DNA of 33,327 nt from Lachnospiraceae bacterium (GTDB taxonomy: Bacteria > Bacillota > Clostridia > Lachnospirales > Lachnospiraceae), in contig JAFXCD010000120.1 of the NCBI GenBank assembly GCA_017521605.1, positions 1 to 33,327 of the forward strand, read 5' to 3'. This document shows, in pieces, positions 62 through 15,556 of the stretch. The translations under genes and the position numbers were made by a program. How positions within the stretch are numbered: position 1 is the stretch's first letter; each line of letters starts with the position of its first letter. A model generated the notes under the pieces. The model searched no databases. It saw only the letters and a list, made by a program, of their open reading frames with translations, and was not told the DNA's origin.

Positions 62-66
62 AGATA

Positions 67-141
67 TCGGGGTGACAGGATTCGAACCTGCGACCCCCTG
101 GTCCCAAACCAGGTACTCTAGCCAAACTGAGCCACACCCCG
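67..141 (-). tRNA. tRNA-Pro (TGG)
   Basis: The minus strand gives a complete cloverleaf: acceptor CGGGGTG (141-135) pairs with CACCCCG, followed by discriminator A at 67. The anticodon stem CCTGG/CCAGG encloses loop TTTGGGA with anticodon TGG, and the T loop is TTCGAAT. No CCA is encoded. It is the first gene of a tRNA-Pro/tRNA-Gly unit driven by the promoter at 170-198. Confidence 0.96.
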
Positions 142-169
142 ATAATGATTCGTTTACAACGCAAAATCC

Positions 170-3417: not shown

Positions 3418-3512
3418 GAAAACGAATCATTGTGAAAAATCAAAGTTTTTTCACCTTCCATTTTAGCAGTATCACAATCACTGCTTGTGATATGCATGGG
3501 GTGTAATAAAAA

Positions 3513-4352
3513 TTAACCCTTCACACTACCTAAAGCAACACCGGCAATGATGTACTTAGAAAGTGCAAAATAAACAAGGAACAACGGTAATACAGTCAAT
3601 GTAAGACCCAAATAAACTGCACCGTATTCTGTTTTATAAATGTCACCTCTCAACAAACTAATCATACAAGGCATGGTGTATTTGTCCTGACGTAACAAAA
3701 TCATAGGCATAAACAACTGATTCCACGTATTTACAAAGGTAAAAATAGCCTGAGTTGCAATTGCCGGCTTCATAATCGGTAATGCAATACGATTAAAGAT
3801 GAAAAACTCTCCTGCACCGTCAATACGAGCTGACTGTACGATTTCCAAAGACAACGCCGGTTTCATATACTGTCTCATAAAGAACACCATACTGGGCGCT
3901 GCAATAGAAGGCAGAATCAAGGGTGCAAAAGTATTAATCCAACCCCATGAGTACATCATCTTGTAAAAACCGATAGTAAGTAACTGACTGGGAATCATTA
4001 ATACACACATAACAAAGGTAAAGAATACATTCTTTAATTTCCAATCATATACCACTACGGAATATGCAGTCAAAGTAGAGAAATACACTGCACATAGGGT
4101 TGCACCGGTTGATACAATCATCGAGTTAACAAAACCCTTCATAGGACTAAAAGGTTTATTTTCAAACACCTTAAAGTTACTGAAAAGATAATCTGATGGT
4201 ATCAATGAAATTGCTGTCTGCTGAATCTCATATGTAGATCGGGTAGCATTTACAATCATAATATAAAATGGGAAAATACTTAATATGGCAAGGAAAATGC
4301 ACACAACATAGATGCCGGTCTTGCCTAATGTAGCTCTAACACCATGTCTCAT
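3513..4352 (-). CDS. CUT1 sugar ABC transporter permease, MalG/LacG type
   Basis: A 279-aa inner membrane permease with six predicted helices. The EAA loop that contacts the ATPase is clear at EIVQSARIDGAGEFFIFNRIALPIMKP, with the conserved Gly of the 'EAA---G---------I-LP' motif. The C terminus SKYIIAGVALGSVKG is typical of MalG-type subunits. Its ATG overlaps the upstream stop (TAATG), and GGGAGGT lies 8 bases upstream. It forms a heterodimer with the adjacent MalF-type permease. No ATPase gene is present; in Firmicutes a shared MsmX-type ATPase usually serves CUT1 systems. The substrate is inferred to be cellobiose or longer cello-oligosaccharides from the neighbouring GH94 gene. Confidence 0.92.
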   Translation of the reverse strand: MRHGVRATLGKTGIYVVCIFLAILSIFPFYIMIVNATRSTYEIQQTAISLIPSDYLFSNFKVFENKPFSPMKGFVNSMIVSTGATLCAVYFSTLTAYSVVVYDWKLKNVFFTFVMCVLMIPSQLLTIGFYKMMYSWGWINTFAPLILPSIAAPSMVFFMRQYMKPALSLEIVQSARIDGAGEFFIFNRIALPIMKPAIATQAIFTFVNTWNQLFMPMILLRQDKYTMPCMISLLRGDIYKTEYGAVYLGLTLTVLPLFLVYFALSKYIIAGVALGSVKG

Positions 4353-5341
4353 TATTTGCCACCTCCCATTAATTCTTTCTCTTTCATTTTCTGCTTATAT
4401 TCTTTCTCCTGCTTACGAATAATCTTACGCATTTCTATTTCATCTTTGTCGCGTAACATATAGAAGGTAAATGCTGACAGTACTGCAATAATAGCAAACA
4501 TAATCATACTTGCAGCAGAAGCTCTGTTATACATATAGCTTCCTCTAAATGCCTGATCATATATAAAGGTAGCAGCTGTCGCCGTTGCATTGTTCGGACC
4601 ACCAGCCAGGAACATCAAAGGTATATCGAACATGTTCAAACCACCAATTAAAGATGTTACTAAAGTAAACAGCATAATTGTTTTTAGGTTAGGTAAAGTC
4701 ACATACCAGAACTGCTGGAATCCACTGGCACCATCAATTTCAGCCGCCTCAAATAATTCAGGGCTGATACCCAAGATACCGGAAATTAAAACAATCATAG
4801 TATATCCATACCACTGCCAGAACTGAATAAATGCAACGATACATTTTGCCGCAACACCATCGATTGCGAAATAATAAGGTTCTGTGATAATACCCAGATT
4901 AAGCAGAATATCATTTACTGCTCCCTTAGGGTACATAAACAACTGATTGAACAAAAGAGCCACAGTTGCTGCGGTAATAATATTGGGCATGTAAAGTACT
5001 ACCTTAAAGAAACCCTGTCCTTTAATCTTACGACGGGTGCTGGTAAACCAAACTGCCAAAACTAATGCCAACAAAATCTGAGGGATAAAGTTTACACCCC
5101 AAATAATAAAGGTATTCTTAAGACTAGTACGGAAAACCGGACTACTCAAAACATCCTTATACTTTGCCAACGGATCATCCAATATCTGCAGGGGGGGAGC
5201 CATCAATCCCTGCTGATTGGTGAAACCGATAAAGAAAGTATAAAGCAACGGATACAGTGTAAACACTGCAAATGCGATAATAAATGGTGCTGCAAAAATA
5301 TAGCCCCATTTTGCATAGCTGACACGCTTCTGCGGTTGCAT
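4352..5341 (-). CDS. CUT1 sugar ABC transporter permease, MalF/LacF type
   Basis: A 329-aa permease with an N-terminal helix (WGYIFAAPFIIAFAVFTLYPLLYTF) carrying the family 'P...YP' pattern, further helices, and the EAA loop ELFEAAEIDGASGFQQFWYVTLPNLK. The frame is open to 5431, but ATG 5341 (MQPQKRVSYAKWG) has GGAGGT 6 bases upstream and fits the family start. The last codon overlaps the next permease by one base. It is downstream of the binding-protein gene across a strong terminator hairpin, so its expression is probably lower than that of the binding protein. Confidence 0.92.
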   Translation of the reverse strand: MQPQKRVSYAKWGYIFAAPFIIAFAVFTLYPLLYTFFIGFTNQQGLMAPPLQILDDPLAKYKDVLSSPVFRTSLKNTFIIWGVNFIPQILLALVLAVWFTSTRRKIKGQGFFKVVLYMPNIITAATVALLFNQLFMYPKGAVNDILLNLGIITEPYYFAIDGVAAKCIVAFIQFWQWYGYTMIVLISGILGISPELFEAAEIDGASGFQQFWYVTLPNLKTIMLFTLVTSLIGGLNMFDIPLMFLAGGPNNATATAATFIYDQAFRGSYMYNRASAASMIMFAIIAVLSAFTFYMLRDKDEIEMRKIIRKQEKEYKQKMKEKELMGGGK

Positions 5342-5448
5342 ATTTCCACCTCCATAGAAATTTAAATTAGAAGATGTAAATCCCTTGATCAATTCACATC
5401 TTAAGTACATATGCTTATGGCAAATCCACAAGGGATTTTTGCAAAAAA

Positions 5449-5475
5449 GGGGCAGACGGAAAACCCGTCCGCCCC
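5449..5475 (-). terminator. GC-rich intra-operon terminator/attenuating hairpin after the binding protein gene
   Basis: On the minus strand GGGGCGGACGG pairs with CCGTCTGCCCC (11 bp with one G-U) around GTTTT, followed by TTTTTTGC. This is a textbook intrinsic terminator 28 bases after the binding-protein stop and 108 bases before the first permease start. It probably lets partial read-through set a high binding protein to permease ratio, and also blocks 3' exonucleases. Confidence 0.88.
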
Positions 5476-5502
5476 GAAAAACCTATTTAGTATTTATACA
5501 GA

Positions 5503-6918
5503 TTATTCTGCTTCGATACCTAATTTTTCCTTAACATTTGTCTTGAAGTTGTTAAGAGCTTCTTCACGGCTGATAGTACCAGCGGTGTACAGACGAACCT
5601 GCTCTCTGAATGCATCGTTGATGGTCTGATCGTGCTGTGTTAAGTTCTTACCATTTGCGAATGCGTTTGCAGGAACAAATACGTCGAACATGTTCTGTCC
5701 GCTTAAGAATTCTAATTCACCATTAGACTTATCCATAACAGTACCAGAACCTACAGAGTCCTTTGCAGTTGCAGTAGAAGGATCGTTATCCCAATCTACA
5801 GTACCGTTAGCCCAAGCATACTGTAAACCATTTTCAGAAGCATCAAGAGTAATCCACTCGATGATATCACCTACAGCAGCCTTAACCTTAGAATCCTTGT
5901 TACCAAGTAACCATGTACCACCCCAGAAGAAACCTACAGGAGATTCACAAATAGCCCAATCACCATAAGTACCTTCGCCAACAGCGTTACCGCCACAGTT
6001 AGGAGCGATGGTGTAGTTGATTAACCATGCAGGACCGAAGAAACCAAAAATTTGCTTATCGCCTTCACCCTTCATATCTGCATACCAAGCATCCTGCCAG
6101 TCCTGAGTATCATTGTGGTAACCATTGTCTTTTAACTTCTTAGAGATGTCTAAGAACTCTTCTCTCTTAGGATCGATATGTAACTTACCATCTACAATCC
6201 AACCCTTATCAGAGCTGTTCTCAATTGCGTGCCAGATATCACCGTCACCAGAGATGATACCATAACCCTTAGCCTTTAATTCATCAGCTGCTACCCAGAA
6301 CTGATCCCATTTTCCTGAACCACCACCAATTTTGGTCTTAACAGTTGCAGGATCATCAGTTCCCCAAGTTGCCTGTGCGATAGAACGACGATAAATGAAA
6401 GCACCACCGGTAGCCTGGTAACCAAGAGCTACTACTTCGCCATCGCTAGGACGAGTACCAATCTGTACAGAGTAATCTGCAATAGCACCATCCTTGATCA
6501 TCTTATCTACATCGATACCTAACTCTTTGTAGGTTGCTGCGTATCCGCTAGCATCACCCTGAGTATACTTCAAAACGAAAGCTGCTTCTGCACAGAAGAT
6601 ATCAGGAGCTTCTGCACCACCAGCCTGTAATGCTGCATCAAGTGCAGGAGTATACAGGTTGTCAGTTGTAGAAATGATGGTTGTCTTGATTTCGTAACCG
6701 AAATCAGGATGATCTGCAACATACTTATCAATCATCTTAGGAACTTCATCAGTAAATGCCCAAACGTTGATAACTTTTACTTCGGGATCATTAGTAGCAT
6801 CTGCCACTGGAGCGTTGCCGCCTTCTGAACCTGAGCTAGCAGGTGTCTTTTCTCCACATGCAGTTAAACATCCTAATGCTAATACTGCACATAAAGAAGT
6901 TGCGATTAACTTTTTCAT
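5503..6918 (-). CDS. Sugar ABC transporter substrate-binding lipoprotein (CUT1, probably cello-oligosaccharide)
   Basis: A 471-aa extracellular binding protein. The N terminus MKKLIATSLCAVLALGCLTAC is a lipoprotein signal with lipobox LTAC and lipidated Cys21, followed by a Ser/Gly/Ala linker. The rest has the size and pattern of SBP_bac_1 proteins (repeated Trp/Tyr, 'WINGTVDWDND', 'EEALNNFKTNVKEKLGIE' at the C terminus). It captures the sugar at the membrane surface and passes it to the two permeases downstream. AAGGAGGG lies 7 bases before the ATG and a promoter lies at 6964-6992. Substrate assignment rests on the adjacent LacI gene and cellobiose phosphorylase, not on binding residues. Confidence 0.9.
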   Translation of the reverse strand: MKKLIATSLCAVLALGCLTACGEKTPASSGSEGGNAPVADATNDPEVKVINVWAFTDEVPKMIDKYVADHPDFGYEIKTTIISTTDNLYTPALDAALQAGGAEAPDIFCAEAAFVLKYTQGDASGYAATYKELGIDVDKMIKDGAIADYSVQIGTRPSDGEVVALGYQATGGAFIYRRSIAQATWGTDDPATVKTKIGGGSGKWDQFWVAADELKAKGYGIISGDGDIWHAIENSSDKGWIVDGKLHIDPKREEFLDISKKLKDNGYHNDTQDWQDAWYADMKGEGDKQIFGFFGPAWLINYTIAPNCGGNAVGEGTYGDWAICESPVGFFWGGTWLLGNKDSKVKAAVGDIIEWITLDASENGLQYAWANGTVDWDNDPSTATAKDSVGSGTVMDKSNGELEFLSGQNMFDVFVPANAFANGKNLTQHDQTINDAFREQVRLYTAGTISREEALNNFKTNVKEKLGIEAE

Positions 6919-6963
6919 TAGATAACCCTCCTTGAAAAATTAAAAAAATTAAATTGTAATAAT

Positions 6964-6992
6964 AGTATATATGTAAATATAACACTATTCAA
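6964..6992 (-). promoter_or_regulatory. Promoter of the sugar ABC transporter operon
   Basis: The minus strand reads TTGAAT (6992-6987), a 17-base spacer, and TATACT (6969-6964). Transcription would start near 6957. Upstream, GTAC-centred words occur at 7000-7006, 7040-7046 and 7059-7065. The TTAAACGTTTAA operator seen before the GH94 gene is not present here, so control may differ or use a diverged site. Confidence 0.75.
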
Positions 6993-7075
6993 TAGTTAAT
7001 GTACAAATTCCACAACTTTTTTCGTAATTTATGGTTAACTTGTACGTTCTGACTTGTATTGTACATCAAAATTTC

Positions 7076-8092
7076 CTATTTGTCAATCCTTCTTACAGTA
7101 TCTCCTTCATAAACTATTCCGCTGACCATGACCTGCTCTATTAAAGCGGTTTTCGGACTCTCTATGAGTCCTATTAATTTTTTGGCTGCTTCATAGCCCA
7201 TCTTTTCGGTGTCCTGCTTTAAGGTAGTAACTCTGGGAACTACATGTCTGTCTGCTTTTACTCCATCATACCCTACTACGGACACATCATCAGGAATCCG
7301 ATAGCCCATGGCCTTGATGGTATTCATACCGCCCTGACAGGCAATATCATCGGGATACAATATACATGTAGGCGGCTTTTCCAGAGTCATCAGTTGTACT
7401 GTTGCCAAAGAGGCGGCTTTTACATCTCTGTAGGCTGCTTCCCTCACATATTCATCCGGCACATCAACACCAAACTGTGCTGCCGTTCTATAAAAGGAAG
7501 CCACTCTCTTCTGTGTAACTGAAGAAGGTTCTCCATGAATATATGCAATCCTGTCATGTCCCATCTTATAAATATATGTAAACAAATCGCTCATGCCACC
7601 TATGTTATCTGAAACAATGGCTGTGCGCTGTTCGAAAACATGATCAATAGTAACAACCGGAATATCGCTCTGGATTAATTCCAGCACCTCAGGATCATAA
7701 AAATCCACACAGGCAATTACCACTCCGTCAAAGCTTCTGTATCTGCAATGTTCTGTAATCGACAATTGGTTACGCCCTTTTTTACTACTATTAATAAATG
7801 TAATATCGTAACCACTCTCTTCAACGGTACGCTTAAAGCTGTCTAAAACATAAGAAAAGAAATCATGGGTCAAACCACTCTGAGCATCATCCACAAAAAG
7901 TACTCCTATATTATAAGTACGATTGGTTTTTAAAGCCCGGGCCATAGAGTTAGGATAATACCCCATCTCTTTTGCCACTTTCCTGATTCTGTTTTTGGTT
8001 TCCTCTCCAATGTCGCTATGGTCGTTCAGTGCTTTGCTTACTGTAGCCACACTTACACCACAGGCAATGGATATATCTTTCATCGATACCAA
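7076..8092 (-). CDS. LacI-family transcriptional repressor of the cellobiose locus
   Basis: A 338-aa LacI/GalR protein. The HTH (residues 4-25, MKDISIACGVSVATVSKALN) and hinge helix (YYPNSMARALKT) are standard, followed by a periplasmic-binding-protein-like sensor domain (about 60-330). TTG at 8092 is preferred because AAGGGG lies 10 bases upstream; the ATG at 8083 would be 19 bases from it. The gene lies between the transporter operon and the divergent GH94 gene. A near-palindrome TTAAACGTTTTC lies just downstream of its own -10, and the perfect version lies downstream of the GH94 promoter, so it most likely represses itself and GH94 until a cello-oligosaccharide or related ligand binds. Confidence 0.93.
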   Translation of the reverse strand: MVSMKDISIACGVSVATVSKALNDHSDIGEETKNRIRKVAKEMGYYPNSMARALKTNRTYNIGVLFVDDAQSGLTHDFFSYVLDSFKRTVEESGYDITFINSSKKGRNQLSITEHCRYRSFDGVVIACVDFYDPEVLELIQSDIPVVTIDHVFEQRTAIVSDNIGGMSDLFTYIYKMGHDRIAYIHGEPSSVTQKRVASFYRTAAQFGVDVPDEYVREAAYRDVKAASLATVQLMTLEKPPTCILYPDDIACQGGMNTIKAMGYRIPDDVSVVGYDGVKADRHVVPRVTTLKQDTEKMGYEAAKKLIGLIESPKTALIEQVMVSGIVYEGDTVRRIDK

Positions 8093-8128
8093 GACTTCTG
8101 ATTCCCCTTTTGTACAACCTGCACGCCC

Positions 8129-8177
8129 TTAAACGTTTTCGTAATCCTAATATAGTCCACTTTTTCAAAAAAAGCAA
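8129..8177 (-). promoter_or_regulatory. lacI-type gene promoter with overlapping operator
   Basis: The minus strand reads TTGCTT (8177-8172), a 17-base spacer and TATATT (8154-8149). The operator-like TTAAACGTTTTC at 8129-8140 (plus-strand reading) falls around +3 to +14. This placement suggests negative autoregulation. Confidence 0.7.
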
Positions 8178-8260
8178 CATTTATTTTACATTTTTTTATT
8201 TTTCATGTGATTTTTGGTCATTTTTCACAAGTTTCCACTCGCTTTTCTAACATTATGCTA

Positions 8261-8324
8261 TTGCATTAGAGATTTTTCTTTTGTATAATGCAAATATAAC
8301 TATCATTTTTACTTAAACGTTTAA
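8261..8324 (+). promoter_or_regulatory. Cellobiose phosphorylase promoter with palindromic LacI operator
   Basis: TTGCAT (8261-8266), a 17-base spacer and TATAAT (8284-8289) form a strong promoter with a start near 8296. The perfect 12-bp palindrome TTAAACGTTTAA at 8313-8324 lies about 17 bases downstream of the start, with the central CG typical of LacI/GalR operators. It is 28 bases before the GH94 ATG. Confidence 0.82.
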
Positions 8325-8352
8325 CTAAATTTTATCAAAGGAGATTAACAGT

Positions 8353-10788
8353 ATGAAATTCGGTTATTTTGATGATGCCAATATGGAATACGTCATCACA
8401 ACCCCCAAAACTCCCTTACCCTGGATTAACTATCTGGGATGCAACGAATTTTTCAGTTTAATTTCAAACACCTGTGGTGGCTACACCTTTTATAAGGATG
8501 CGAAATTACTGAGATTAACTCGTTATCGTTACAATAACGTACCTACCGATATGGGTGGCAAGTATCTCTATATTAAAGATGCTGATACTGTTTGGAACCC
8601 CGGCTGGCAGCCTGTAAAAACCACTTTGGACTCTTACGAGTGCCGCCACGGTATCGGTTATAGCCGTTTTACTTCTTCCAAGAATAATGTAAAGGCTGAT
8701 CTGCTCACTTTCGTTCCCATGAATGACAACTGTGAAATCAGCAAATTCACTGTTTCCAACACAGGCTCTGAAGTAAAAGAATTAAAAGTTTTTTCTTATG
8801 TAGAGTGGTGTCTGTGGAATGCAGATGATGATATGAAGAACTTCCAACGTTTATTAAGCTGTGGTGAAGTGGAAGTAGTTGGATCTACCATTTTTCACAA
8901 GACAGAGTACAGAGAGCGTCGTAATCACTATGCTATCTACTCCGTAAACGCACCTATTGCAGGCTTTGATACTATCCGCGATGACTTCCTGGGCGAATAT
9001 AGAAGCTTAGACAATCCGGAAGTTGTAGAAAACGGTCAGTGTAAGAATACTATGGCAAGCGGTTGGTCTCCCATCGCATGTCAGCAGTTAAACATCACTT
9101 TACAGCCCGGCGAAGAAAAGACCTTTGTATTTGTACTTGGTTACATAGAGAATCCTCAGGAAGAAAAATGGGAATCTCACGGCATTATTAATAAGAAGCC
9201 TGCTAACGAAATGTTAGCTCGCTACGCTACTGCTGAAGATGTTGATGTTGCATTTGCAGCTTTACAGGATTACTGGAAGACACTTCTTTCAAAGTTCCAT
9301 GTAGAATCCTCTAACGACAAAGTAAATCGAATGGTAAATATCTGGAACCAGTATCAGTGTATGGTAACCTTCAACATGTCCCGTTCCGCTTCTTATTATG
9401 AATCCGGCATCGGCCGTGGTATGGGCTTCCGTGACAGTTGTCAGGACTTACTTGGTTTCGTACATCTGATTCCTGACCGTGCAAAAGAAAGAATTATTGA
9501 TATCGCTTCTACCCAGTTTGAAGATGGTAGTGCATATCATCAGTATCAGCCTCTTACCAAGAAGGGTAACGCAGACATCGGCGGCGGTTTCAACGATGAC
9601 CCCTTGTGGTTAATCGCAGGCACCAGTGCTTATGTTCGCGAAACAGGCGATACCTCTATTTTAGAAGCATCTGTTCCTTATGATAACGATTGGTCTAAGG
9701 CAACCAGCCTGATGGGTCACTTAAAGAGATCCTTTGACTTTACCGTAAATCACAAAGGACCTCATAAATTACCATTAATCGGTCGAGCAGACTGGAATGA
9801 CTGTTTGAACTTAAACTGCTTCTCAGAGCATCCCGGTGAATCCTTCCAGACCTTTGGTCCCAGTGAAGGTCCTGTTGCAGAATCTGTATTTATTGCAGGT
9901 ATGTTCGTTAAATATGGTGAAGAATATGCACAGTTGTGCGAATTAATGGGCGATACTGCTGAAGCAGAATATGCTCGTAAAGAAGTTGCTAAAATGTATG
10001 ATACTATTCTGGAAGCCGGTTGGGACGGCGAATGGTTCGTTCGTGCATACGATGCATACAGTAACAAGGTTGGTTCTAAGGAATGTGAAGAAGGTCAGAT
10101 TTACATTGAGCCTCAGGGCTTCTGTGTACTTGCAGGTGTTGGTGTTAAGGAAGGTCTTGCAGAAAAAGCGCTTGACTCTGTTAAGGCTAAATTGGATACC
10201 GAATATGGTATCATGATTTTACAGCCTGCTTATACCAAGTATCACTTAGAGCTTGGTGAAGTTTCTTCTTATCCCCCGGGATACAAAGAAAATGCCGGTA
10301 TCTTCTGTCATAACAACCCTTGGGTATCTATTGCAGAAACAGTTATTGGACGTGGTGACAGAGCATTCGAAATCTACAAGAAGACCTGTCCTGCATACAC
10401 CGAAGAAATCAGTGAAATCCATCGTACCGAGCCTTACTGCTACGCTCAGATGATTGCCGGTCGTGATGCTAAGTTCCACGGCGAAGCAAAGAACAGCTGG
10501 TTAACCGGTACTGCTGCTTGGACCTTTACCAATATCTCTCAGTACATTCTGGGTGTTTATCCTACCTTGAACGGTTTACAGATTAACCCCTGTGTACCTA
10601 CCGGCTTTGGCGATTTCAGCTTAACCCGTGAATATCGCGGAGTTATCTACAATGTTCAGGTTAAGAACCCTAACAATGTTCAGAAGGGTGTAGTAAGCAT
10701 GGTAGTTGACGGTGCGGAAGTTTCAGGTAATGTGATTCCTTACGATGCTTCTAAGAAGGAAGTTAATGTAATCGTTACCATGGGGTAA
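8353..10788 (+). CDS. Cellobiose phosphorylase (GH94)
   Basis: An 811-aa protein, the same length as the Clostridium thermocellum cellobiose phosphorylase as I remember it, and co-linear with it from MKFG-FDDAN-EYVIT to the C-terminal VTMG. It phosphorolyses cellobiose to glucose 1-phosphate and glucose in the cytosol, saving ATP. The catalytic motif [12 protein letters not shown] places Trp481 and the general acid Asp483 (matching the DWND motif of GH94), and [37 protein letters not shown] and [15 protein letters not shown] are further conserved blocks of the (alpha/alpha)6 barrel. AAAGGAG lies 9 bases before the ATG. It pairs with the divergent CUT1 transporter, which should supply its substrate. 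Confidence 0.95.
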
Positions 10789-10808
10789 ACCTAAATTATT
10801 GCATACTT

Positions 10809-10834
10809 AAACGGCGGAAAAATTTCCGCCGTTT
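10809..10834 (+). terminator. Terminator of the cellobiose phosphorylase gene
   Basis: AAACGGCGGAAA (10809-10820) pairs with TTTCCGCCGTTT (10823-10834), followed by TATTTT on the plus strand. The T tail favours the plus direction; it lies directly against the end of the convergent DUF6171 gene. Confidence 0.88.
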
Positions 10835-10838
10835 TATT

Positions 10839-11105
10839 TTACCACTTCTTTCTGGGACAACTGTTCTTATTCACTGCAGCCCTAAGTTCCACATAACAGC
10901 CACAGGAACGACACATGGCCTCTAGAAACATTTCGCATTCCTTACAAATCTGCAAACGTTTCTCATATACTTCATCCGACACTTTCATGTCCGGTTCCAG
11001 TCTTTCAAGTAATGCTCCTATAGATTCATAATACTCAGTTTTATCCTGCAACTCCCGCATCAGACATTTCTTACAGATACGATAAGTATTGGTATTCTCA
11101 CTCAT
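10839..11105 (-). CDS. DUF6171 small cysteine-rich protein
   Basis: An 88-aa protein with Cys pairs C11-x2-C14, C54-x2-C57 and C65-x2-C68-x-C70, plus C83, suggesting one or two zinc sites. The core KRLQICKECEMFLEAMCRSCGCYVELRAAVNKNSCP is what I recognise as DUF6171, widespread in Lachnospiraceae with no assigned function. No signal peptide or membrane segment is visible. AAGGA lies 8 bases before the ATG. It is convergent with GH94 and separated from it only by the terminator. Confidence 0.8.
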   Translation of the reverse strand: MSENTNTYRICKKCLMRELQDKTEYYESIGALLERLEPDMKVSDEVYEKRLQICKECEMFLEAMCRSCGCYVELRAAVNKNSCPRKKW

Positions 11106-11277
11106 ATTATAATTCCTTTATACTATGTATTATAAATTATTTCTTTTCAGTTTCTTGATTTTGTTCCATTCACAAAATAGTTACACTACATTTGTTTTAG
11201 GGCTCATTATAAAATCTCCTCATGAACTCTGTATATATTTCATAGTTTAATCAGCTTTCCCACAATCCAACATAATA

Positions 11278-11379
11278 ATTTTACACCTTTACAAACTTAC
11301 AAGGTTCTCAAACTTCCATTGTTAGTGGAAAATTCTATTTTGAGTTTTACACCTTTACAAACTTACAAGGTTCTCAAAC
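11278..11379 (-). CRISPR. Minimal CRISPR array: two 36-nt repeats and one 30-nt spacer (type II-A style)
   Basis: On the minus strand the repeat begins GTTTGAGAACCTTGTAAG and ends TTTGTAAAGGTGTAAAAC. The first copy is 11379-11344 and the second 11313-11278; they differ only at the last base (C to T), as expected for a decayed terminal repeat. The spacer (11343-11314) is 30 bases. Repeat length, GTTT...AAAC ends and spacer length fit type II-A. The array follows a csn2 remnant on the same strand, the usual type II-A order. No cas9, cas1 or cas2 is in the window. A possible third, heavily decayed copy near 11408-11443 was not convincing. Confidence 0.8.
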
Positions 11380-11437
11380 CTCAAAATAATTTTAGATCAT
11401 CACCGAACCATAACATTTAGGTAAATGCTGTAAGTTT
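11380..11437 (-). promoter_or_regulatory. CRISPR leader between csn2 remnant and first repeat
   Basis: This 58-base AT-rich stretch separates the csn2 stop from the first repeat. On the minus strand it ends ATTATTTTGAG directly against the repeat, closely resembling the ATTTGAG leader-end motif that guides Cas1-Cas2 integration in one group of type II-A systems. This supports the orientation of the array. Confidence 0.6.
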
Positions 11438-11733
11438 CTAAACTTGAATCAAACATTTGTCTTTATCAATTATACAATATCTTTCTACATCTATACAATC
11501 CTTTTTATCGGATTCAATCATTAATATTGATAACTTGTTATAGAAAGATGATTTATATATATCTCTCTTATCTGTTCTTTATCAAAAAACGATTTAAAAT
11601 TGATAAAAACAATTAATTTCGTACCACATAATGTCTTTTCCAACTGCATATAGTTTAACACTTTTTCAAGCAAATCAATTTCTTGGAAATCAAAGTGTAC
11701 ATTGTACATCTTAAAAAAGTCTTTTTTTGTTTC
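11438..11733 (-). pseudogene. csn2: csn2 remnant: 3' end only, with a one-base frameshift
   Basis: The minus-strand frame from 11733 reads DFFKMYNVHFDFQEIDLLEK and then KLIVFINFKSFFDKEQI, matching the C-terminal half of Csn2 (helical 'LLEKLLEYM', strand 'LFVFVN.KSFL..EEL'). It hits a stop at 11521-11523 after ITSYQY. Restoring one missing base near 11529 lets the next frame continue LMIESDKKD...ERYCIIDKDKCLIQV to TAG at 11438, the usual Csn2 C terminus. About 95 codons survive of roughly 220; an in-frame TAG at 11734-11736 marks loss of homology. Csn2 is the type II-A adaptation accessory ring protein. Internal ATG 11709 could still start a 62-aa peptide, but function is very unlikely. Confidence 0.78.
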
Positions 11734-11781
11734 CTATAATATGATAACATATTTTTTACAATCTTTCCATATCAACAACAA

Positions 11782-11815
11782 AAAAACCTTGAAAGCTTTC
11801 ACTTTCAAGGTTTTT
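11782..11815 (-). terminator. Terminator of tRNA-Arg
   Basis: On the minus strand AAAAACCTTGAAAG (11815-11802) pairs with CTTTCAAGGTTTTT (11795-11782), followed by TTGTTGTTG. This gives a 14-bp stem with a T-rich 3' arm and tail, 23 bases after the tRNA 3' end. Confidence 0.9.
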
Positions 11816-11837
11816 AGCGTGCACAAACCGCACATAG

Positions 11838-11911
11838 CGTGCGCTAGAAGATTCGAACTCCCGACCTTTTGGTCCGTAGCCAAACGCTCTATCCAGCTGA
11901 GCTAAGCGCAC
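11838..11911 (-). tRNA. tRNA-Arg (ACG)
   Basis: The minus strand starts GTGCGCT at 11911, pairing with AGCGCAC and then discriminator G at 11838. The anticodon stem TTTGG/CCAAA encloses loop CTACGGA with anticodon ACG, and the T arm contains AGTTCGAAT. No CCA is encoded. It lies between a consensus promoter and a strong terminator. The word TAGCGTGC at its 3' end recurs 20 bases downstream (11815-11822), possibly a trace of past insertion or deletion. Confidence 0.96.
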
Positions 11912-11913
11912 AT

Positions 11914-11973
11914 ATGTTGCAGATTATCGCCTGCAACATTTAGTATTATATACACTTCTCATAGAAATGTCAA
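11914..11973 (-). promoter_or_regulatory. Consensus promoter and hairpin leader of tRNA-Arg
   Basis: The minus strand reads TTGACA (11973-11968), a 17-base spacer and TATAAT (11950-11945), a perfect consensus. The predicted start is near 11938. ATGTTGCAG (11939-11931) pairs with CTGCAACAT (11922-11914), so almost the whole 27-base leader is one 9-bp hairpin ending 2 bases before the tRNA. Confidence 0.85.
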
Positions 11974-12022
11974 TACCCATTTACAAATAAATTTTTGCAA
12001 TTTTTTATTCAATTATAATTTC

Positions 12023-13492
12023 TTATTTTGCAGAGGCATATATTTTTGCAGCTGCATTTAAATCATTTACAATTGCATTTACTTCCTGTACCATGGCACT
12101 GTTCTTTTCACAGGCATCATAGGTTTCACCGGAATGTGCACTTACTTCCTCTGTAATAGCAGAGATTGTCTGGATACTGTCCACAATTCCTTCATTAGCC
12201 ACTTCCAGAGAACGAATGATTCGTTCCATCAGTTCCACCTGGTTACCGATGGACTTTGTACTGGTTGAAATCTTGTTAAAGCTTTCGGATACTTCGCCGG
12301 TACTGGCTGCATAGGCACGATTACACTCTGTTACCATGTTGATAGCTTCTTTTACTGCTACCAATTCCTCATTCATATTACGTATCAAATCCACAATATT
12401 CACTGTAGCATCCTTGGTTTGTCCTGACAACGCTGATACTTCCCCTGCTACTACGGCAAACCCCCTTCCGGCTTCTCCCGCTCTGGCTGCTTCGATACTT
12501 GCATTCAGTGCCAACAAACCTGTTCTGTTGGCCACATCAGTAATAGTTTCAATAATCGTATTCATATTTTCAGCATGGGTATTCAGCGCTTCCATCTTTT
12601 CAAGCATCAAATTATTAGCCTCTACAGACTTCTTCACCTGCTCTCCCAGTGTTACCACATGAGAGTTGCCCTTTCCTAATACCTCCAAGGCCATTTGCAT
12701 CTCATTCATTATTCCATCGGAAGTATTCTTTACATCTGTTACATAGCGTTGAATATCCTCTGTTTTATGTAACTGCTGTTGCACTGCATCAGAAGTCTCA
12801 TTGCTACCATCAGCCACCTGCTTCATGGATTCCTGAATATGGATAACAGAAGCACCCAACTCTTCCATCTTGCCTGTCACACCTGCGATATCTGCACTAA
12901 TCTTGGCTGCCATATTCAAATTATCTGCCAATGCCTTGTCAGTAGTATCCTTTTGGGCATTAATCAGCGACATACGCATATCATTGGTTCGCTTCAGACA
13001 AACTGTACTTACGATTAAGAAAATACCTACAACAAACACACCCGCCACACGTATCTCCATATCTGCCAGAGTTACACCTAACAGCTTATCCATAATCATC
13101 CGATAAATGATATCAATAGCATTGATCACTATGGATGAGATGCACATATTTATGGAATATTTTACACTGGAAAACAATGTAACTACTATCATCATAGGAA
13201 AAATGTAGGTATAAGTAACAATACTATTGGAGGTAAATACCGTAAATGCATACAACACACTATAGCATATCCCCATCAAATACATAATCGCTTGTGTTTC
13301 ACTGTTTCGTTTATACAAAACCCAACACAATGCGGACGGCACCAGACATAACGCCAGCATGGCAACCAGATATACGGGACCTCTTGCCTTTTTTACAAAT
13401 TCCAGCACATACGCCACCGATAAACATAATGTAATAACCAAATAGCAAATAGACGCTGCCCTATTTACATAAGCTCTTTCTGATAATTTCAT
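12023..13492 (-). CDS. Methyl-accepting chemotaxis protein with a multi-helix membrane sensor
   Basis: A 489-aa receptor. Residues 1-175 hold about six hydrophobic helices and no large extracellular loop or Cache domain. No clear HAMP follows; a coiled-coil signalling domain runs from about 200 to 489. The hairpin tip [29 protein letters not shown] is the conserved CheA/CheW contact site. It probably senses a membrane or cytosolic cue rather than a periplasmic-type ligand. I start at ATG 13492 ([14 protein letters not shown]): AGGAG is 7 bases from it but only 1 base from the ATG at 13498. No flagellar sigma-D promoter was evident. It is divergent from the sufC-like gene. Confidence 0.92.
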
Positions 13493-13579
13493 AAGCATGC
13501 TCCTTTCAAAACTGTTTCACATCACACTTCTCACACCTTTATTGCGTGAATACTCCCAACGCATTGCACAAGTTGTTGG

Positions 13580-13614
13580 AATTATTTTAACATAAAACTA
13601 ATTATTTTAACATA
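13580..13614. repeat. Two direct 15-nt repeats with a 20-bp period
   Basis: AATTATTTTAACATA occurs at 13580-13594 and 13600-13614, two helical turns apart, in the divergent region between the chemotaxis receptor and sufC-like genes. It could be a regulator site for either gene or a chance AT-rich duplication. Confidence 0.6.
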
Positions 13615-13629
13615 CTTTTTTCGAATTTC

Positions 13630-13659
13630 TTGTATTCTTTTTCTTTTTTGTGCTATACT
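13630..13659 (+). promoter_or_regulatory. Promoter of the sufC-sufB-like operon
   Basis: TTGTAT (13630-13635), an 18-base spacer and TATACT (13654-13659) precede AGGAGG (13675-13680), which lies 7 bases before the ATG at 13688. Confidence 0.7.
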
Positions 13660-13687
13660 GTACAAGGTAATAAAAGGAGGTATAAAA

Positions 13688-14416
13688 ATGTTGAAATTAC
13701 AAGACATTTCTTTTATTGTGGATTCTGAGAATTCTACCAAGAAAGAAATTATTAAAAATATAAATTTAACTATCGATGATCATAAATTTGTGGCAATTAC
13801 CGGTCCCAACGGAGGCGGTAAATCCACTTTGGCCAAGCTGATTATGGGTATTGAAAAACCCACATCCGGTAAAATATTTTTTAATGACACGGACATTACG
13901 GATATGAGTATTTCCGATCGTGCCAAATTAGGGATCAGCTTTGCCTTCCAACAGCCGGTACGTTTCAAGGGTATCAAGGTCAAGGATTTGATTACTCTGG
14001 CTGCCGGAGACTCCATCTCCACAGCAGGTGCCTGTGAATATTTGTCCAAGGTAGGTTTATGCGCCAGAGACTATATCAATCGTGATGTGGACGGTTCCCT
14101 GTCCGGCGGTGAGTTGAAACGTATTGAAATCGCCACTATCATCGCCCGCAACACTCCTCTCTCCGTTTTCGACGAACCGGAGGCAGGCATTGATTTATGG
14201 AGCTTTAACAATCTGATCAAAGTATTTGAAGAGTTCCATAACCAGCAAAAATCATTGATTATCATCTCCCATCAGGAGAGAATTTTGAACATAGCCGATG
14301 AGATTATCATTATCGCAGATGGTACGGTACGTTCCTTCGGCAGCAAATCCGAGATTTTACCGGAGCTTCTTAATGGTACCGGTAGCTGTAAATTTTATCA
14401 GGAAGTACAGAATTAG
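13688..14416 (+). CDS. SufC-like ATPase of a minimal Fe-S assembly pair (SmsC type)
   Basis: A 242-aa soluble ABC ATPase. Walker A GPNGGGKST (39-47), Q-loop FQQP (87-90), signature LSGGE (138-142), Walker B SVFDEPE (159-165) and switch H195 (ISHQ) are intact. The signature continues LSGGELKRIEIATII, matching SufC rather than transporter ATPases, and 'FDEPEAGIDLWSF' is also SufC-like. It should drive conformational change in its partner SufB-like protein for Fe-S cluster building. The next gene starts 11 bases after the stop. No sufS, sufU or sufD is adjacent. Confidence 0.9.
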   Translation: MLKLQDISFIVDSENSTKKEIIKNINLTIDDHKFVAITGPNGGGKSTLAKLIMGIEKPTSGKIFFNDTDITDMSISDRAKLGISFAFQQPVRFKGIKVKDLITLAAGDSISTAGACEYLSKVGLCARDYINRDVDGSLSGGELKRIEIATIIARNTPLSVFDEPEAGIDLWSFNNLIKVFEEFHNQQKSLIIISHQERILNIADEIIIIADGTVRSFGSKSEILPELLNGTGSCKFYQEVQN

Positions 14417-14427
14417 GAGAATACATC

Positions 14428-15345
14428 ATGGACGCTATACAGAAAAATTTATTGGAGCAGATAGCCGGTCTGCATGAAGTACCTGCCGGAGCCTACAACA
14501 TCCGTGCCAATGGCGCTTCTGTTGGACGTAACACCACTGCTCATATTGATATTGTAACCAAAGAGGACAAGCAGGGCATCGATATTATCATCAAGCCCGG
14601 CACCAAGAGGGAAAGTGTACACATCCCTGTAGTACTTAGCCAGAGTGGCTTGACCGAAATGGTTTATAATGATTTCCACGTAGGGGATGACTGCGACGTA
14701 ACCATTGTAGCCGGCTGCGGTATTCACAATGGTGGTGATCAGGCTTCCAAGCACGATGGAATTCACAGCTTCTTCATCGGCAAAAACTCTCATGTCAAGT
14801 ATGTTGAAAAACATTACGGAAGTGGTGATGGTAAAGGAGAGAGAATTATGAATCCGGAAACCGTCATTCACTTAGCAGAAAACAGCTTTATGGAGATGGA
14901 AACCGTACAAATCAAGGGTGTAGACTCCACCAAGCGTATTACCACTGCTGATTTAGCAGAGGGTGCCAAGCTTATTGTCACAGAAAAGCTGATGACACAT
15001 GGCTCACAATATGCAGAAACCGACTTTACTGTAGACTTAAATGGTGCCGGCTCCAGTGCCAATATCATCTCCCGCGCAGTAGCCAAGGATGATTCCAAAC
15101 AGCTTTTTCTGGCAAAAATCAATGGTAACAACAAATGTGCCGGTCACTCCGAATGTGATGCCATCATTATGGACAATGCCAAAATCAGTGCCATCCCGGA
15201 AATCACAGCCAACCACTTAGATGCGGAGCTGATTCACGAGGCTGCTATTGGTAAAATTGCCGGAGAGCAGATTATTAAGCTCATGACCTTGGGACTGACT
15301 GAGACGGAGGCTGAGGCACAAATTATCAATGGATTTTTGAAATAA
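14428..15345 (+). CDS. Short SufB/SufD-like Fe-S scaffold protein (SmsB type)
   Basis: A 305-aa protein, well short of canonical SufB (about 465 aa) but like the short archaeal and clostridial SufB forms. It carries the beta-helix core and C-terminal helices: GIHSFFIGKNSHVKYVEKHYG, then CAGHSECDAIIMDN, then AELIHEAAIGKIAGEQIIKLMTLGLTETEAEAQII, matching the SufB C-terminal 'HEA..GKI..E.L.YL..RG' pattern. Cysteines near C232/C238 and His residues in these blocks are candidate cluster or persulfide ligands. With the ATPase upstream it forms a two-gene SufCB unit of the kind described as the SMS system. Cytosolic; no signal peptide. Confidence 0.88.
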   Translation: MDAIQKNLLEQIAGLHEVPAGAYNIRANGASVGRNTTAHIDIVTKEDKQGIDIIIKPGTKRESVHIPVVLSQSGLTEMVYNDFHVGDDCDVTIVAGCGIHNGGDQASKHDGIHSFFIGKNSHVKYVEKHYGSGDGKGERIMNPETVIHLAENSFMEMETVQIKGVDSTKRITTADLAEGAKLIVTEKLMTHGSQYAETDFTVDLNGAGSSANIISRAVAKDDSKQLFLAKINGNNKCAGHSECDAIIMDNAKISAIPEITANHLDAELIHEAAIGKIAGEQIIKLMTLGLTETEAEAQIINGFLK

Positions 15346-15367
15346 ATAGGTTGTTCCTTGGCAGGTT

Positions 15368-15538
15368 GAACCGGAGCAGTGCATATACCTGTCTCTCACA
15401 CACTAATGAAAACACAGCAAATCTAAAAATGTATGTCCTTGTCCGTACACTTGAATGTGTTCGTCCATGACATACATTTTTTATTTGCTGTGTTTTCAGA
15501 GTAGTATTACGTGACAGGTATATGCACTGCTCCGGTTC
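15368..15538. repeat. 171-bp long inverted-repeat element (three-tier hairpin)
   Basis: The outer arms, 26 bp (15368-15393 and 15513-15538, starting GAACCGGAGCAGTGCATATA), are perfect. A second helix of 15 bp joins 15408-15422 (GAAAACACAGCAAAT) to 15483-15497, and a third of 13 bp joins 15425-15437 to 15469-15481. The apical loop is about 31 bases. It fills the space between two convergent genes. No T run follows either side, so a plain terminator is not the full explanation; a MITE-like element or structured RNA is possible. Confidence 0.85.
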
Positions 15539-15556
15539 GCCACCGAATATGCTCTT

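Follow-up and report, generated by a model that had tools for sequence, protein, structure and literature searches.

A remnant of a type II-A CRISPR-Cas locus between tRNA-Arg(ACG) and a DUF6171 gene in a Lachnospiraceae genome, probably left by one deletion

We analysed a stretch of 33,327 nucleotides from a putatively Acetatifactor-like Lachnospiraceae genome (hereafter the window) and conclude with high confidence that it carries what is left of a type II-A CRISPR-Cas locus, which lay between tRNA-Arg(ACG) and a DUF6171 gene and was probably lost by one deletion of ~5.8 kb. An earlier note on this DNA had proposed a decayed type II-A locus of which a csn2 tail, a leader and a one-spacer array are left, and the present analysis supports that interpretation. 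The evidence observed directly comprises the surviving parts and their order (Table 1), a terminator-like string at the junction, an assembly in which cas9 has no match and cas1 none that exceeds the cut-off, and a relative whose type II-A locus occupies the same site. In the scenario that we favour, a full type II-A locus would once have occupied the interval between tRNA-Arg(ACG) and the DUF6171 gene. A single deletion of ~5.8 kb would have removed the body of the tracrRNA, cas9, cas1 and cas2, together with ~138 codons from the 5' end of csn2. The breakpoints probably fell within the T-run of a tracrRNA-type terminator on one side and a T-rich part of csn2 on the other, and these may have offered a short microhomology. 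The csn2 tail would additionally have been frameshifted, while the leader and two repeats would have survived. Deprived of Cas9, the tracrRNA and Cas1-Cas2, the array would be inert, providing neither immunity nor new spacers.

Table 1. Positions of the remnant and of its neighbours in the window
Feature	Position	Strand	Basis or remark
DUF6171 gene, array-side neighbour	10839..11105	-	PF19668, 1.5e-27
Distal CRISPR repeat (36 nt)	11278..11313	-	35/36 identical to the proximal repeat; last base T
Spacer, single, 30 nt	11314..11343	-	
Leader-proximal CRISPR repeat, 36 nt, GTTTGAGAACCTTGTAAGTTTGTAAAGGTGTAAAAC	11344..11379	-	
Type II-A leader, 61 nt	11380..11440	-	csn2 stop codon to TTTTGAG; matches four intact leaders
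csn2 3' end, 38 codons, in a frame different from that of the preceding piece	11441..11554	-	TIGR01866, alignment
csn2 piece, 51 codons, starting at codon ~139 of 228	11560..11712	-	Csn2 profiles, alignment to relatives
AAAAAAAGACTTTTT, resembling the 3' terminus of the tracrRNA-type terminator that precedes cas9 in relatives; putative deletion edge	11714..11728	-	
Terminator after tRNA-Arg	11782..11815	-	Window collinear with L088 from 11780 on
tRNA-Arg(ACG), cas9-side neighbour	11837..11911	-	

The array consists of two repeats and one spacer on the minus strand (11278-11379), as the earlier note had described it (two 36-nt repeats around a 30-nt spacer). It has the features of a type II-A array, namely 36-nt repeats, a spacer of ~30 nt and a leader with a TTTGAG-type anchor at its end, and its repeat is 1-2 nt off the commonest repeats of the intact type II-A arrays in G045, G009, G090 and G120, four genomes of the same genus. 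The possibility that the repeat is a dispersed non-CRISPR element was checked and discarded, the array sequence having a single match in the whole assembly. A search of 11100-11278 for a third, degenerate repeat found none with 14 or fewer mismatches. No convincing protospacer for the spacer was found in viral contigs, phages, plasmids or its own genome. One scan of viral_contigs returned zero exact matches, the best 20 of 123 phage records were all at E 8 (not above chance), and 14 plasmid records had E values of 2 to 5, none above chance, including two partial 18-nt exact matches; in the own genome, at up to 3 mismatches, the spacer matched only itself. On the plus strand, the spacer end and the first repeat base (11313-11344) read TATTTTGAG, which resembles the leader end TTATTTTGAG; this likeness may be due to chance in AT-rich DNA.

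The leader, recognized at first by its TTTTGAG end before the repeats, is confirmed by its matches to four intact type II-A leaders. It shares 49 of 61 aligned bases with the leader of G045, 52 of 61 with that of G009, 50 of 60 with that of G090 and 48 of 61 with that of G120, and these four share 47-55 of 62-66 aligned bases among themselves. Alignment scores against the four were 32.5-39, compared with a shuffle maximum of 14.5 (300 shuffles each). The leader of G021, a member of another csn2 group, still scores 23.5 against the window leader (shuffle maximum 12.0), so leader likeness by itself cannot fix the subclade. The leader of G047, the genome with a locus at the same site, scores 3.0, at the shuffle mean (3.5). 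In one account, the last seven bases of such leaders play a part in integration (PMC7999890).

The type II-A gene beside the array, csn2, is present only as a remnant of ~90 C-terminal codons, 5'-truncated and frameshifted. Its identity had been proposed from the family pattern, and a Csn2 profile search of the repaired reading now bears it out: with the two pieces joined by an X, TIGR01866 matches at 1.5e-15 and PF09711 at 1.8e-10. Taken alone, the 5' piece matches TIGR01866 (5.3e-11) and PF09711 (3.5e-9), and the 3' piece matches TIGR01866 (0.012) and nothing in Pfam. There is one frame change, between 11560 and 11554, and no stop inside either piece. The earlier note had counted the last ~95 codons; the tail is real, but csn2 proper starts at ~11712 and amounts to ~90 codons. 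A longer fused reading of csn2 has to be abandoned, as the residues before ~11712 correspond to a stretch resembling a tracrRNA terminator.

The tail is 31-39% identical to csn2 of its four nearest relatives (G045, G009, G090 and G120), compared with 52-61% among those four, and it retains 18 of the 36 residues that are invariant in them, whereas leave-one-out controls retain 36 of 37 to 42. Given this divergence, the parent locus is absent from the relatives compared. Rates of difference from the four intact genes are 0.18-0.28 at second and 0.60-0.63 at third codon positions, and the tail is thus still coding-like; at first positions they are raised (0.44-0.54, vs 0.29-0.44 among the four). 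We suspect a long divergence under constraint followed by some decay. In a FastTree phylogeny of 89 columns, the tail groups with the same four genomes (support 0.92) on a branch longer than theirs, and csn2 of G047 groups with that of G073 (support 0.88).

The string AAAAAAAGACTTTTT directly precedes the csn2 tail and has one match in the window at up to one mismatch, where 0.02 are expected. The region upstream of cas9 was inspected in six loci and is tracrRNA-like in five of them (G045, G009, G090, G073 and G082), its far end being a run of A followed by GACTT; in the sixth, G120, a contig end cuts this region off. We take the region to be that of the tracrRNA from the general anatomy of type II loci rather than from a family search. 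Of 17 CRISPR-locus stretches, 4 contain the exact 12-nt core AAAAAAAGACTT, always at 95-132 bases upstream of cas9, and the window contains it a single time; the terminator of G047 differs in sequence from the AAAAAAAGACTT type. When the junction (146 nt) was compared with 34 loci by blastn, the best match (73% over 55 nt, E 0.001) came from the region before cas9 of G009; that of G002 ranked second (E 0.023), and all other matches were weaker. At the window locus itself, the tracrRNA signal is limited to a terminator-like match of ~15 nt and of low complexity, which, like the restricted occurrence of the core and the differing G047 terminator, counts against the deletion reading. From the terminator string to csn2 codon 139 is a distance of ~5.8 kb in G009. 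Since a terminator-like string abuts csn2 codon ~139 in the window, one deletion of ~5.8 kb between two T-rich stretches is implied as the simplest explanation, and on sequence grounds the loss of cas9, cas1, cas2 and the 5' part of csn2 looks like one deletion starting inside a tracrRNA-type terminator.

That cas9 and cas1 are gone, as the earlier note had stated, holds for the assembly that contains the window (G000, contig C12), which comprises 3.8 Mb in 125 contigs and is 92.87% complete with 5.99% contamination. A search of this assembly with the TIGR01865 profile gave no cas9 match. Control genomes likewise had no match over the cut-off with this profile, so the Cas9 of G045 was used as the query instead; it matched in all three other genomes (G045, G047 and G104), and none was found in G000. 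For cas1, PF01867 gave nothing over the cut-off in G000, with two matches at 11.1 and 10.6 bits vs 22.3. Only ~100 bases separate the csn2 tail from the tRNA in the window, where Rfam at gathering thresholds reported only tRNAs. Within this 92.87% complete assembly the array is an orphan as to cas9 and cas1.

A survey of 138 genomes of the same genus found csn2 over the cut-off in 18, G000 included. In 16 of the 17 others a near full-length cas9 match is followed by cas1, cas2 and csn2, the exception being the broken locus of G047. Repeats of the window type follow csn2 in 15 of the 16 intact loci (the pattern found none in G103), and a pair of such repeats occurs in 16 of the 138 genomes, 15 of them among the 18 that bear csn2 and the remaining one G104. 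Altogether 19 of the 138 carry some trace of a type II-A system, and at least 3 of these 19 (G000, G047 and G104) are broken. The loci of G045, G009, G090 and G120 resemble the window in repeat, leader, csn2 subclade and a 66-nt repeat period, but unlike it they retain cas9, cas1, cas2 and a full csn2. The locus of G104 (L198 8410-10865, G104:C3) retains ~150-170 codons from the 5' end of cas9, then an opposite-strand ORF (helicase-like by eye) and 7 repeats, with no cas1, cas2 or csn2 match in the 19 kb around it. It is, like the window, a type II-A locus with damaged cas genes and a short array, but it has kept the 5' end of cas9. No tRNA-Arg(ACG) was found around csn2 in the 16 csn2-bearing genomes other than G000 and G047, in the stretches examined, several of which are cut by contig ends; that of G120 ends 68 bases before cas9, leaving the cas9 side unseen.

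The relative with a locus at the same site is G047. Its contig C40 (L081), in window orientation, carries tRNA-Arg(ACG), a terminator and the start of a cas9 that is in pieces and lacks residues ~918-1216, followed by cas1 residues 6-111 at 709 bases from the contig end. Contig C34 (L077) carries 16.4 kb of other DNA, cas1 residues 98-203, 1.6 kb, cas1 residues 203-318 and cas2. A full-length csn2 and a short array come next; in the array, two repeats were found and a third, degenerate one was seen by eye. Beyond it lie genes homologous to four of the window (DUF6171, HAAS-domain, RlmL-like methyltransferase and Ham1), and then tRNA-Pro. Because the cas1 parts are complementary and synteny holds on both sides, we infer that the two contigs form one interrupted locus, whose two cas1 parts are separated by ~17 kb or more of other DNA. 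Given that cas9 of G047 begins just beyond tRNA-Arg(ACG), this tRNA is the cas9-side neighbour. The earlier note had tRNA-Arg and its terminator standing in the place of the cas genes, which is incorrect, as the tRNA is the outer neighbour of the locus. The comparison that it suggested, with relatives that keep cas9 next to tRNA-Arg(ACG), could be made with G047, although this locus is broken, divided between two contigs and of another type II-A lineage.

The G047 locus shares with the window its type, damaged cas genes, a short array and the tRNA-Arg(ACG)-DUF6171 interval; unlike the window, it has an open csn2, a broken cas9 and a broken cas1, and spans two contigs. The two differ in csn2, repeat and leader lineage. 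A parent role of G047 for the window system was considered and rejected, given its leader score and the grouping of its csn2 with that of G073. The presence of different lineages at one site may reflect either two arrivals there or an old system that diverged in place. Integration at the tRNA end was likewise rejected: with up to 4 mismatches allowed, the window has a single occurrence of the final 22 nt of tRNA-Arg, and a duplicated attachment site was not found there.

The nearest relative found by a scan for DUF6171, L088 (Lachnospiraceae bacterium RGIG6370, from sheep rectum), aligns collinearly with the window to either side of the scar, with DNA identities of 80.2% (11780-15541) and 82.7% (3505-11085). 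Its tRNA-Arg and DUF6171 gene are 261 bases apart, with no CRISPR and no cas match at the site, and its genome, for which completeness was not given, has no cas1 match. The CRISPR-free site of L088 leaves room for a recent arrival of the locus, and the window system may predate or postdate the divergence from L088. Among the 80 DUF6171 relatives kept of 473, tRNA-Arg(ACG) lies upstream of DUF6171 on the same strand in 42; the gap measures 61-410 bases in 28 of these and 861-5815 bases in the other 14. None of the 80 loci contains cas genes or the window repeat type. Before its DUF6171 gene, L088 has a Cys-rich mini-ORF (9796-10000; DUF1540, E 0.0056, under the cut-off), whose last ~25 nt seem, by eye, to have a counterpart in the window within 11137-11207. 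A decayed copy of this mini-ORF between the array and DUF6171 was rejected, as the whole alignment scored 26.7 vs a shuffle maximum of 27.9.

This distribution could also be explained if a horizontal transfer had brought the csn2 tail, leader and array, already truncated, into the interval from the tRNA to the DUF6171 gene, as the CRISPR-free site and missing cas1 of L088 and the 80 DUF6171 loci would allow. However, an internal deletion predicts a terminator-like string at the junction, which is what we see, and cas9 lies at the tRNA side of the interval in G047. A deletion that preceded transfer is still compatible with both observations, and we consider a truncated arrival very unlikely. 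An array used in trans by a Cas9 and tracrRNA encoded at another locus, either on a mobile element or in sequence that the assembly lacks, is a more doubtful proposition still. The leader is about as close to intact leaders as those are to each other and the two repeats differ at one base, as might be expected of an array in use, but G000 lacks a cas9 match and a cas1 match over the cut-off, the array occurs only here, and its spacer has no convincing protospacer.

The number of contigs and the contamination estimate of G000 raise the question of an assembly or binning artefact, in which a chimeric contig would join a CRISPR fragment to chromosomal DNA. We give this hardly any credence, since collinearity with L088 holds to the left and right of the scar and since G047 carries type II-A genes, oriented as here, at either edge of this interval. 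Deletion within a resident type II-A locus is thus the reading that we retain.

Type II arrays without cas genes have been described, for instance the orphan CRISPR2 of Enterococcus faecalis (PMC4580645), which, like the window, is an array of type II kind without cas genes of its own. As described there, CRISPR2 is present in every strain studied, with variable spacers and a repeat common to CRISPR1-Cas, and the authors suggest that CRISPR1-Cas may add spacers to it (PMC4580645). In the window, by contrast, there is a single spacer, a partner system was not found, and the csn2 tail bears a deletion junction. The scar therefore joins a known kind, the cas-less type II arrays, and is distinguished by its readable junction and by empty-site and same-site relatives. 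None of the papers that a literature search listed names Acetatifactor together with CRISPR-Cas and Cas9 in its title or abstract. With its two flanks at hand, and with empty-site and same-site relatives for comparison, this scar of CRISPR-Cas9 loss may be useful for studying the deletion of type II-A systems in gut Lachnospiraceae and its recurrence within one genus. In another genome of the survey (L071, G082:C109), the array of a type II-A locus whose cas genes are complete ends beside a tRNA cluster that begins with tRNA-Pro(TGG), a tRNA also found at the far end of the window (66-142).
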